From contig CANQLR010000012.1 of the NCBI GenBank assembly GCA_947624745.1, positions 1 to 64,000 of the forward strand: 64,000 bases of DNA, given 5' to 3'. Of the stretch, positions 6,354-56,676 are shown piece by piece. Position 1 is the stretch's first letter, and every line of letters starts with the position of its first letter. The position numbers were made by a program, and so were the translations under genes. The notes under the pieces were generated by a model, which was given only the letters and a program-made list of their open reading frames with translations, searched no databases and was not told the origin of the DNA. The stretch is from an uncultured Clostridia bacterium. Its GTDB lineage: Bacteria > Bacillota > Clostridia > Oscillospirales > Ruminococcaceae.

Positions 6354-6665
<312 letters not shown>

Positions 6666-11021: not shown

Positions 11022-11575
11022 GGGGCGAAGCCCCCGCCGGCCACTCCGTGGCCGGTGGGCCGGGAGGCATAGCCTTCTGGCCGCACGGAGCGAAGCGACG
11101 GGCAGGGGCTTCGACCTCCGTGCGTTCAGCACCTTGCTAAATTTTGTTAAAGCCCCAACTTTGCGTATAAGGTATTCGCTCGCAGGCGAGCTCATGCTAT
11201 TTTGAGTGCCCTCCCCCTCTGAATCTTGAGCAGAACTGTAGCGTTGTGAAGCCCCCTCCCGGTGGGAGGGGGCTTGATATTTCGTCAAAGTTGTTTCCCC
11301 GCGGCTCTGCCCTCTGACTTCTGTATTCTGCGCGTCTGGTGGGGCGAAGCCCGGGCGGCAGCGGAGCTGCCGCCATGCCGTCCCCGCTTGCGGGGACGGC
11401 GGTGCGCCTGCAAAGCAGGCGCACACGGGCTTCGCCCACCGCAGCGCCCTGCAGACCCCGCGCGGCGAAGCCCCGTAGCGCCCACTCCGTAGGCGCTACC
11501 TGCGCACTTCGTGCGCAGGGTCGGCAGCAAAGCTGCCGACCGGGGCTTCGCCCCCGCCAACGCCCGTTTCCCCAC
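11022..11575. repeat. GC-rich intergenic hairpin mosaic, copy 1
   Basis: No gene is present. From left to right it holds a GGCCAC-TCC-GTGGCC hairpin (near 11041), the recurrent block with GGTATTCGCT and CTCATGCTAT (11169-11216), a CCCTCCCGGTGGGAGGG palindrome (11263-11279), a pyrimidine tract CTCTGACTTCTG (11304-11332), and a hairpin array (11338-11556). Array members include GCGGCAGC-GGA-GCTGCCGC, GTCCCCGC-TT-GCGGGGAC, GTGCGCCTGC-AAA-GCAGG and TCGGCAGC-AAA-GCTGCCGA. GGGGCTTCGCCCC-like units frame the array. It resembles the copy at 50.7-51.6 kb. Confidence 0.85.
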
Positions 11576-32379: not shown

Positions 32380-33083
32380 AGGGGTGCCGGGAGGGAGGGG
32401 GCTTGCCCGGGTGCGGGGTTTGCACTTTGGCGCGGGGAGGGGGCGAAGCCCCGGCCGCTCGCGGAGCGAGCGGCCATTCCGCCTCCGCAGGAGGTGGAAT
32501 GTGAGCCTGCGAAGCAGGCTCATGGGGCTTTGCCATGCTATGTCTGCACCTTCCTGCGGGGGTAGGAGGCCGGGGCGAAGCCGCCGCTTCGGCGGGTTCG
32601 CTGCGCAACGGGCACTGAGGTACGAGTCAGCAGTCGCTGGCCGTTGCGCCCCTCCCCTCGGGGAGGGGCAGGGGTGGGGGCTAAAGATAGCATGAGCGAA
32701 GCGAATACCTTTTGACGACCCATGCGGAGCTATATCAGAGCTTGGAAAAACGCAGAAATCATGGGCGAAGCCCTAAGCACGCCTCCGGCGTGCTTCCCGC
32801 CGCGGAATTGCTTTTGAATCCACGCAAAGTGTCCAAATCTTTGCCTTTCCCAAAGACAGAGCAAACCGTCGGCGTGGCAGACAAAGCCCATTTCATGGGC
32901 TTTGGGGCTTCGCCCTCACCAGACAGCAGAAATCAGAAGTCAGGAGACAGAGCTACATGATATAACTTTGGTGAGATTTGAACTCCCCCTCCCGGCGGGA
33001 GGGGGTTGCTGCATGACCGTGATTCTGCGCAAGGGACGGAGGGGTGGGGCTTGAGATAGCATGAGCGAAGCGAATACCTTTTG
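32380..33083. repeat. GC-rich intergenic hairpin mosaic, copy 2
   Basis: No gene. It contains GCCGCTCGC-GGA-GCGAGCGGC and GAGCCTGC-GAA-GCAGGCTC hairpins (about 32455-32525). The long stem-loop module is at 32572-32650 (GCGCAACGG 32603-32611 pairing with CCGTTGCGC 32641-32649), followed by a C-rich palindrome. Two minus-oriented copies of the CATGAGCGAAGCGAATACC block lie at 32671-32713 and 33041-33082, and a pyrimidine tract at 32921-32952. It lies between the reductase gene and tRNA-Leu. Confidence 0.82.
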
Positions 33084-48362: not shown

Positions 48363-48484
48363 TGCTTTTGGAGGGGGAGGAGAGGTTTTGATTTTTTCTT
48401 CAAAAAAATGCAAAGAAAGAATGCCGAAAAGGTTTCGCCGGCCTTTCCTTAAAAGGCCGCGGGGATCCAAGGGCAGAGCCCTTG

Positions 48485-48674
48485 GTCGCGACCGCAGTCG
48501 CGAAATTCCATTTGGCGTAAGACAGCGCAGGGCGGGGAGGAGCAATCAGCCCGTCCCGGGCGAAGCCGCCGCTCCGGCGGGTTCACTGCGCAACGGGCAC
48601 TAAGGCACGAGTCAGAACTCGATTGGACGTTGCGCTCTCGCCGGGGGCTCCCCGTTTACCAAGCGACGAGCGAG
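48485..48674. repeat. 190-bp intergenic repeat, copy related to 50871-51064
   Basis: It begins with GTCGCGACCGCAGTCGCGAA, contains the stem-loop module (GCGCAACGG 48588-48596 with CGTTGCGC 48628-48635), and ends near GCGACGAGCGAGG. A second copy with the same order lies at 50871-51064. No gene. The rest of 48363-48842 has no recognised feature except a terminator. Confidence 0.8.
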
Positions 48675-50662: not shown

Positions 50663-51600
50663 AACAGAAGGCAGAGATCAGATGGCAGAAGTCAGAACGT
50701 ATGCCCACCTTCGGCAGCATAACATCAAAAAGGTTTTACCCCGCTTTTTCTCAAAAAGCGGGCGAGGTGAATGCAAGCTGGTTTTGTTACTGCTCGACTG
50801 CCCTCGGCGGCAACGATTGCCTCGGTTGTCTCGCAGACAAAACCCCGCGTGCATCGGTCGAGCAGCCCTCGTCGCGACCGCAGTCGCGAAACACCCCTAC
50901 GCGCCAGCGAGCGCAGGACAGGGAGGAGCAATCAGACCATCCCCGGGCGAAGCCGCCGCTCCGGCGGGTTCGCTGCGCAACGGGCACCAAGGTACGAGTC
51001 AGAAGTTGCTCTGCCGTTGCGTTCTCGTAAGGGGTCTCCCCGTTTGCCGAGCGATGAGCGAGGCAAACAAAAGCCATAGCTAAGCAGTTAATGCAAGTGT
51101 CGCTCTACAAGGTATTCGCTTCGCTCATTCTATTTTAAGCCCCACCCCCTTCAAAGTCTGTGCAGACTTACAGCTAATTAGCAGCCCCCTCCCGGTGGGA
51201 GGGGTGTTCATATGCTCGGGCAAAGCCCCATGCGCGGAGCTTCGCTCCGCGCGGCCGGGAGGCTCCGCCTCCCGGCACGCCGGCCACTCCGTGGCCGGCG
51301 TGGGCTTTGCCCGCCCCAACCCTCTGCCTTACCGCGGCAAAGTACGAGTCTGCACGGGTGAAGCCCCGTGGCGGCAGCTCCGCTGCCGCCAAGCCCTCCG
51401 AGCAAGCTCGGAGGGCGGTGCGCCTGCAAAGCAGGCGCACCCGGGCTTCGCCCACCATAGCTCCCTGCAGCCCCCGCGCGGCGAAGCCCCTGCGGCAGCT
51501 CCGCTGCCGCCCGCCGACCGCGCAAGCGCGTCCGACGTTGGCGCGCTCCGCGCGCCTCGGGGCTTCGCCCCATACCTCATTTTTCCTGCAAAGCGCGAAC
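50663..51600. repeat. GC-rich intergenic hairpin mosaic, copy 3
   Basis: No gene in about 940 bp. In order: a pyrimidine tract on the minus strand (50663-50699), a GCAACGATTGCCTCGGTTG segment (50810-50828), the long repeat (50871-51064) with its stem-loop (GCGCAACGG 50975-50983, CCGTTGCG 51014-51021), the GGTATTCGCTTCGCTCAT block (51109-51148), a CCCTCCCGGTGGGAGGG palindrome, and a hairpin array to about 51570. The array shares GTGCGCCTGC-AAA-GCAGG and GCGGCAGC-TCC-GCTGCCGC with copy 1. Confidence 0.85.
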
Positions 51601-55194: not shown

Positions 55195-56676
55195 TGAGGG
55201 CGCAGAAGGGTGCAGGGGGCGAAGCCCCCACAGGCCGCAAAGCGGACTGTGGGCCGGGGAACGGAGTTCCCCGGCCGCGCGGAGCGAAGCGACGGGCTGG
55301 GGGTTCGCATGTGCGTAGGCGAATCCTTTCCGTCGGCAGCAAAGCTGCCGACGGAAAGGCCGCGAGGAGCGCGGACTTTGGCGCTCCCACAAGGTCGTAA
55401 GACTATGTGGAAAAAGGAGAAGCTTGCGACGATGTGAGCGCCGAGGATTCGCCGTGCGGGTCTGCGCTTTGGTGTGGTGAGGCAGGTGCGTGGGGCGAAG
55501 CCCCGGGCGGCAGCTCCGCTGCCGCCGCGCCAAATCCGCAAGCGGATTTGGCTGAGGCGCCCGAAGGGGCGCCTCGGGGCTTCGCCCCGTGTTGCCCGCA
55601 CCTCCTTCGTTCCGAAGCAGAAAAGTGCTTTCTTGCGGCGATAGGTCGAGGCACATGGTATGGTTTGATGGAAACTTTGGGGGAGCAGTGGGGGCGAAGC
55701 CCCAACGCCCGCGAAGCGGGCGTTGTCCGCCGCCGCTCCAAAGCAGGGGTCCCACAAAGTCCGTGGACTTTGTGGGGAAGGTAACAGTAAGCGTTGCTTT
55801 TTGCCGCTCGAACGCCCTCGGTAAACAAAGCGTTAAAACTTTCTTTTCGCCTGTCTTCCCTTGGCGACAACGATTGCCTCGGTCGGCTCAAAGAGTTTTA
55901 ATCGCGTTGTTAAACGACAGCCTCGGTTGTCTTGCGGAAAAGCAATCGCTTCTGTGTGCGAAATGAGTGAGCCCCTCCGCTTCCGCGGAGGGGCGAGGGA
56001 TATGGAGCTTGCGACGACGAGACGGCGGGAATCGCGCCCAAATGGGCGCGATTAGGGCTTCGCCCTTCGTGCCGCCTGCTCCTCCTACAATTTTGCTATA
56101 ATCCCAGCCTTGCGCATAAGGTATTCGCTTCGCTCATGCTATCTTAAGCCCCCACCCCCGCCCCTCCCCGGCGGGGAGGGGATCGCTCGTCGAACTTTGC
56201 ACAATAATCTGCGGGTTGAGCGTAAGACCCGGGCGAGGCAGTAAAAGGTATTCGCTCGCAAGCTCGCTCATGCTATTTTAAGCCCCACCCCCTCCAAACT
56301 CTGTGCAGACATACAACTCTGCAGCAGTCCCCTCCCGGTGGGAGGGGGTCTAACCTTGCCTGCAGGGCGAAGCCCCGGGCGGCAGCTTCGCTGCCGCCGC
56401 GCCAAATCCGCAAGCGGATTTGGCTGAGGCGCCCTTCGGGCGCCTCGGGGCTTCGCCCGCGTTGCCCGCACCCCCTGCTCCTCAGCAGAAAACCACCGTC
56501 CCGCGGCAATAGGTCAAGCCGCACGCCTTTTGCTTAACCAAAAACTATGGGTGAGACCGCAAAGCCCCCACCCCCGCCCCTCCGTGACCACCCATCCCCC
56601 TCATTATCCCCGCTATTTAAATCCGTCGCCGAAGGCGACACCTTGCAACTCTGACCTCTGCCTTCTGTCCTCTTGC
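55195..56676. repeat. GC-rich intergenic hairpin mosaic, copy 4
   Basis: No gene in about 1.5 kb. It holds two related hairpin arrays (about 55490-55590 and 56368-56462) with the same arms: GGCGGCAGC with loop TCC or TTC, CCAAATCCGC-AA-GCGGATTTGG, and GAGGCGCC arms with loop CGAAG or CTTCG. Other hairpins include AACGCCCGC-GAA-GCGGGCGTT and GGCCGGGGAAC-GGA-GTTCC. Two GGTATTCGCT blocks lie at 56118-56160 and 56245-56293, each followed by a C-rich palindrome. A pyrimidine tract (56627-56676) lies just before the trkH promoter. Confidence 0.85.

Follow-up and report, generated by a model that had tools for sequence, protein, structure and literature searches.

The GC-rich spacers of the window, by which we mean the whole stretch of 64,000 nucleotides that was analyzed, hold copies of a ~95 bp cloverleaf element that, judged by its exact frame, is a genus-specific interspersed repeat. 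Comparison of copies at the level of sequence indicates that the loops of this element probably invert, and its arms probably re-pair, by template switching between hairpin arms. We commit to template switching as the likely account of the loop inversions and, less firmly, of the upkeep of pairing. No title in the open-access literature searched describes this element family and, resting wholly on those titles, an earlier description was not found. Below, G000 is the genome of the window and the other G-numbers are other species, one genome each.

Anatomy of the element and its loop rule

The unit consists of a left terminal GGGCGAAGCCC, three near-perfect hairpins with hardly any spacer between them, and a right terminal GGGCTTCGCCC. 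Since the two termini are reverse complements and can pair, the unit would fold as a four-way cloverleaf, and such a fold was obtained on both strands for all four window elements tried (DNA energy parameters, z -8.5 to -11.2). The hairpin arms in the GC-rich spacers are perfect and mostly of 7–12 bp, with loops mostly of three bases. An earlier, sequence-only reading of positions 50663–51600 had described arrays of perfect short-loop hairpins. Such hairpins are present, but the cluster occupies 51218–51570 rather than the whole interval, and the hairpins do not form loose arrays, being parts of one ~95 bp three-hairpin unit with terminal inverted repeats. That reading had missed the cloverleaf unit, the loop rule, the closing pair that goes with it and the way inversion depends on arm length, all of which are described below. 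The window elements are as follows.

11342..11437, no strand assigned: cloverleaf element with hairpins GGCGGCAGC (loop GGA), GCCGTCCCCGC (TT) and GTGCGCCTGC (AAA); DNA z -11.2 / -10.2.
11467..11557, no strand assigned: partly decayed second element of a pair, with CCTGCGCAC (TTC) and GGTCGGCAGC (AAA) intact; read by eye and dropped by the stricter parse.
32441..32535, no strand assigned: cloverleaf element with GGCCGCTCGC (GGA), ATTCCGCCTCC (GCA, one mismatch) and TGAGCCTGC (GAA).
51218..51312, no strand assigned: cloverleaf element 1, with terminal stem GGGCAAAGCCC/GGGCTTTGCCC and hairpins GCGCGGAGC (TTC), GCCGGGAGGC (TCC) and ACGCCGGCCAC (TCC); DNA z -10.4 / -10.2.
51356..51453, no strand assigned: cloverleaf element 2, with TGGCGGCAGC (TCC), GCCCTCCGAGC (AA) and GGTGCGCCTGC (AAA); DNA z -10.5 / -9.2; its fold on the - strand has one terminal-stem mismatch.
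51479..51570, no strand assigned: element 3, partly decayed, with GCGGCAGC (TCC), an imperfect middle hairpin and GGCGCGC (TCC); dropped by the stricter parse.
55493..55587, no strand assigned: cloverleaf element with GGCGGCAGC (TCC), GCCAAATCCGC (AA) and GAGGCGCCC (GAAG); DNA z -8.5 / -8.7.
56365..56458, no strand assigned: cloverleaf element with the three arms of 55493–55587 and loops TTC, AA and TTC.

Three hairpins covering 75% or more of the unit were found within 135 of the 150 exact frames that the sampled stretches of G000, G018 and G020 contain. Conversely, when 46 hairpin clusters were collected from the window and 20 stretches without use of the frame, 29 had both half frames within 45 nt, 6 had one and 11 had none, with part of these 11 being another repeat. 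The excess of hairpins over random GC-rich palindromes is large: counting triloop hairpins whose arms reach 8 bp or more, the window has 28 (17 of them GNA or TNC) where 40 shuffles give 1.30, and positions 50663–51600 have eight (five GNA or TNC) where 200 dinucleotide shuffles average 0.04.

Triloops close 507 of the 621 hairpins in 207 units from three genomes, and 449 of these 507 are GNA or its complement TNC (231/272, 156/163 and 62/72 per genome). The loops first listed by the sequence-only reading (GGA, GAA, AAA and the complements TCC and TTC) are present, but the actual class is thus wider. Of these 449 loops, 439 have a C-loop-G closing pair; the favoured GNA/TNC loops differ by species, and AA/TT diloops rank next in the genome of the window. 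Among triloop hairpins of G000, GNA/TNC loops make up 209/251 inside units, 124/308 outside them (a class that includes decayed units) and 10/100 far from units and half frames. Loop orientation relative to gene direction, counted in co-directional gaps, has no clear strand preference (GNA 93, TNC 105). Triplets resembling those of minihairpins also lie inside the terminal stem, where they are complementary in 139 of 141 elements and in swapped order in none of the 141. Tip triplets therefore act as loops and stem triplets as base pairs, which is what formation of the cloverleaf would predict. Extra-stable DNA minihairpins with GNA triloops, and a rule for their closing pair, were reportedly described by Yoshizawa in 1997; the C[GNA]G tips of the element are of the same sequence class, although the minihairpin is a motif of physical chemistry and not a repeat family.

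Loop inversion, pairing and arm length

The observation that the same arms carry opposite loops held up. Both GCGGCAGC-GGA-GCTGCCGC at 11355 and GCGGCAGC-TCC-GCTGCCGC at 51371 were found, and GCGGCAGC-NNN-GCTGCCGC has 104 occurrences genome-wide. The frames of 11342–11437 and 51356–51453 are in the same orientation, with the right half in common including the AAA loop, so the contrast between GGA and TCC is not an inversion of the whole element.

Across the three genomes, 198 element pairs agree in all three arms and in their order, giving 594 loop comparisons. The loops were identical in 336 of these and exactly inverted in 46; another 127 differed by one substitution, 45 by an inversion plus one substitution, and 40 in other ways. 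In 26 element pairs from sampled stretches (6 in G000, 20 in G018 and 0 in G020) one exactly inverted loop is the sole difference, as between 51356..51453 and a copy elsewhere in the same genome (L057:16845). These pairs, together with one orthologous site discussed below, bear out the proposal that the center of a hairpin is inverted while arms and frame stay unchanged. The 26 pairs stem from eight arm combinations, and 15 of the 20 from G018 come from a single one, so that the element pairs are non-independent. Inverted middle loops were also seen between near-neighbor copies 265–408 bp apart (L162, L163 and L165); in L165, from G018, the copies at 6659 and 6924 have GAA and TTC, respectively, in the middle loop, and the third loop is changed too.

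Inversion is not the only way in which loops differ, as exactly inverted loops (46/594) are rarer than loops one substitution apart. The middle base of inverted loops is kept more often than chance in G000 (51/70 versus 0.48) and G020 (23/52 versus 0.32) and less often in G018 (57/99 versus 0.65), counts that come from an early parse of 162 elements without hairpins overlapping by a base or two. Given this mixed retention, some of the loop changes may have arisen by independent substitution among GNA/TNC triplets. When oriented by arm order, many hairpins hold a strong majority orientation (e.g., 19/19), which suggests that inversion is sporadic. Single inverted loops could still be misassembled.

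Pairing is close to complete despite the diversity of the arms. The 207 elements have 34 mismatches in 5707 stem positions with 194 arm cores, a figure biased upward by a parse that requires coverage and rejects hairpins with more than one mismatch; the sampled G000 units have 28 mismatches in 3239 stem positions with 116 distinct arm cores. Mismatches show no wobble excess (A-C 9, G-T 8, with element orientation mixed). Differences between arms were paired in 241 cases and one-sided in 57 (early parse, non-independent pairs, misaligned arms tolerated), and among two-sided changes transversions exceeded transitions, 162 to 92, in the same early parse with misaligned arms tolerated. The suggestion of a fixed frame with exchangeable cassettes agrees with the free combination of hairpins in the sampled G000 units, where side and middle arms form 133 combinations and 122 four-gamete squares; the side arm core CGGCAGC adjoins 26 different middle arm cores.

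The occurrence of both loop orientations depended on arm length. Of the arm groups whose arms do not exceed 8 bp, 1 of 25 had both, compared to 24 of 71 of those with longer arms (9 bp or more; Fisher P 0.003), counting groups of two or more elements with non-palindromic arm orders and loops of the GNA/TNC, AA/TT or AAA/TTT types. Minority-orientation loops numbered 1/83 and 30/200, respectively. In G018 arm length is confounded with position, the side hairpins being mostly of 7 bp and the middle ones of 9–10 bp.

Copy number, host range and orthologous sites

Long stretches totaling 793 kb, the window included, contain 77 parsed units, from which we estimate ~250 copies in the 2.57 Mb genome, provided that these stretches, picked from large contigs bearing copies of one hairpin, are representative. 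The exact frame is present in 15 of 31 genus genomes, with 92 matches in G018, 65 in G020, 60 in G000 and 1–15 in each of the other twelve; the pattern written backward gave 0 matches where the frame gives 60. Three-hairpin units parse in stretches of eight of these 15 genomes (G000, G018, G020, G004, G010, G022, G026 and G028). Outside the genus the exact frame was found in 0/388 genomes of an order search and 0/397 of a phylum search, which had five genomes in common and were both drawn from larger groups; as requiring an exact match makes the test narrow, diverged frames may exist elsewhere. Among viral contigs the pattern was matched once, in L253, where no three-hairpin element could be parsed.

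Units are mostly intergenic, with only 18 of 207 overlapping a gene by a crude gene call. After these 18, and 32 lacking a called gene on one side, were set aside for the counts of gene context and strand, the gaps holding units were 88 co-directional, 37 convergent and 32 divergent. At L147 4800–5540 (G018), a unit is embedded in a longer tandemly repeated sequence of ~285 bp, whose third copy stops just past the left terminus. At the TrkH loci of relatives, L005 has, upstream of the gene, a half frame with a cluster of hairpins next to it.

Two further repeats were noticed in the window. One, a hairpin repeat at 48439–48503 and 50740–50889, is built of TCGCGAC with a CGCA loop and of CGGCCTTT or CCCGCTTTTT hairpins; it has loops of 3–5 bases and no terminal frame, and it occurs elsewhere in the genome and in relatives (L006, L194). 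The other, GGTATTCGC(TTC)GCTCATGCTATTTTAAGCCCC or near variants, was seen by eye in both orientations at ~11170, 32690, 33060, 51108, 56110 and 56240, often near a hairpin CCCCTCCC-GGT-GGGAGGGG, and is probably another interspersed family.

The sequence-only reading had asked whether both loop orientations occur with the same arms at orthologous sites, and this was observed once. A unit between genes for PhoU and a response regulator (Pfam), which are transcribed in the same direction, is present in six species; five of them have TTC as the loop of hairpin 1 and the sixth, G028, has GAA, while hairpin 2 is invariant and hairpin 3 varies by other changes. Varying columns numbered 1/54 in the arms and 0/22 in the terminal stem (together 1/76), compared to 25/111 in the ungapped intergenic flanks, so that selection would explain the constancy of arms and stem equally well. 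In G016, a seventh species, whose PhoU is close, both flanking genes are present; the ~0.9 kb separating them is different sequence, in which no unit parses.

Three more orthologous gaps are occupied by a unit in every species compared, with arms that differ in part or entirely. One of these gaps (L148 10101–10175, L206 1574–1658 and L177 8894–8976) holds a unit in three species, with the order of the end hairpins reversed in G018, which is no more than suggestive of an inversion of the whole core. At one further site a unit is present in G010 and absent from G000, although the borders are not clean. For the 49.5–51.7 kb locus of the window, no element parses within ~1.5 kb in nine stretches of eight other species that carry the left-hand gene, among them two partial genes of G020.

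Probable template switching, rival explanations and known systems

Near-perfect yet diverse arms, exact inversion of the spacer and a threshold of arm length are together the signature of polymerase template switching at inverted repeats. In the account given by PMC8604942, template switching causes both homogenization of arms and inversion of spacers, spacer inversions in yeast were found only where arms exceeded 9 bp, and a transversion excess is cited as published for bacterial template switching. Loop inversion is also reported for bacterial rRNA hairpins in the relevant part of PMC8794818. By this mechanism, the replication machinery would occasionally switch template between the arms of a hairpin while the DNA of the element is single-stranded or forms an extruded cruciform. 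One switch could copy one arm onto the other, so that perfect pairing would be kept or made, and a switch running across the tip would leave the loop inverted. GNA tips would stabilize the folded single strand, and as either strand can carry them we propose that both loop orientations would persist. Switching or conversion among copies with a common frame or hairpins may mix the cassettes.

A structured RNA, transcribed and selected for its fold as a 3' end stabilizer or a processing or regulatory RNA with arms covarying by compensatory mutation, seems quite unlikely to us, and an RNA function for the element is not supported. In its favor, the four sequences folded as RNA stood apart from shuffles no less than the DNA folds did (z -9.9 to -10.8), and the copy conserved in six species between the co-directional PhoU and response-regulator genes, where the flanks vary more than arms and stem do, would suit such a role. 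However, GNA and TNC loops are almost balanced with respect to gene direction, unlike the strongly one-sided stable loops of rRNA, where the figures taken from PMC8794818 put GAAA at 99 times UUUC. Triloops prevail rather than GNRA or UNCG tetraloops, units occur in co-directional, convergent and divergent gaps alike, and the lack of a wobble excess points weakly the same way, orientation being mixed. The only Rfam family above its gathering score in the window was tRNA. As for intrinsic terminators, the T run that follows their hairpin (TTTTT within 15 nt outside the unit) stood on only 2 of 413 sides. A dedicated invertase flipping the loops as a switch would explain exact inversion at fixed positions, but the inverted segment is of 2–3 bp, such an enzyme would face 194 arm cores in three genomes, and inversion depends on arm length; it is very improbable and not supported. 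Chance palindromes or assembly artifact, for which the GC-richness of the DNA and the draft state of the assemblies would speak, are the least likely of all, and as a general account we regard them as refuted by the shuffles, the backward control, the loop class inside versus outside units and the spread across the genus.

The element might instead be non-autonomous mobile DNA like REPIN/RAYT, spread by a Y1 transposase that acts in trans and reads terminal minihairpins in single-stranded DNA, a reading that we consider unlikely and that, as it concerns spread, could be compatible with template switching. With its conserved terminal inverted repeats, variable core, tandem clusters and many copies, the element resembles the REPINs set out in the relevant sections of PMC3116915. 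The 49.5–51.7 kb locus without a parsed element in other species, and the site occupied in G010 and not in G000, also favor it. Yet Y1_Tnp matches occur in only 8 of 31 genus genomes and do not track the element: frame-bearing G003, G010, G028 and 76%-complete G020 have none, and G000 has only pieces with stops, while intact genes are present in G018, which has the most copies, and in G004 and G017. Association with Y1/RAYT genes was rejected on this survey of the 31 genomes. In addition, 202 joined-flank queries against sampled stretches of the same genome returned no empty site of the kind expected for a MITE. The broken pieces of the Y1-type transposase gene lie at G000:C14:2928–3259, and G004 has ten matches of the Y1 family. 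Rather unlikely, although conceivable, is a selfish or host-used DNA element inherited and recognized chiefly by its shape, a single-stranded cloverleaf with GNA tips; its arms would drift freely since template switching would re-pair them, and it would be spread by the same replication accidents and not a dedicated transposase, or be bound by a host protein that reads shape.

If template switching is the explanation, the element would be a natural record of this process in bacteria, with many replicate hairpins of varied arm length in each genome and an internal control built in, the terminal stem versus the tips. The rate of inversion, the arm-length threshold and the origin of compensatory changes would become directly measurable. 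Furthermore, covarying near-perfect stems, often taken as evidence of functional RNA, can occur without a clear strand preference and with a loop rule of the DNA type.

The earlier statement that no known repeat family has such a rule was too strong, as Volvox organelle palindromes, plastid hairpins and template-switch inverted repeats are all comparable. REPIN/RAYT repeats reportedly carry a GTAG or CGTC tag at one end. As in REPINs, the end units GGGCGAAGCCC and GGGCTTCGCCC here are inverted and conserved in sequence. As described in part by PMC3116915, the REP/BIME/REPIN families resemble the element as high-copy intergenic palindromes with inverted terminal units and tandem clusters, but the ends of REPINs are linked to a RAYT gene, whereas the inner arms here vary widely and the element is not tracked by Y1 genes. 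The hairpin elements of sponge mitochondria are interspersed and sometimes double or triple, with conserved stems and variable loops, but they are mitochondrial, their loops are longer (7 bp in the types considered), and the portion of PMC2800124 concerned reports no diversification of stems such as that seen here. According to the sections of PMC2670323 drawn on, the Volvox organelle repeats are interspersed, intergenic palindromes, some inserted in others, with loops of 3–5 nt that are often TAAA or TTTA, reverse complements of each other; they differ in being organellar, in loop sequence and in having no fixed terminal stem with three hairpins. Plastid hairpin loops flip recurrently between identical stems, as do the loops here, but these small inversions form no repeat family, belong to plastids and, in the text of PMC6824564 relied on, follow no reported GNA rule. 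The likeness to the template-switch inverted repeats of yeast lies in perfect arms, an exactly inverted short spacer and an arm threshold near 9 bp (as outlined in PMC8604942); those are scattered single hairpins, whereas the element has many copies, three hairpins and a loop rule.
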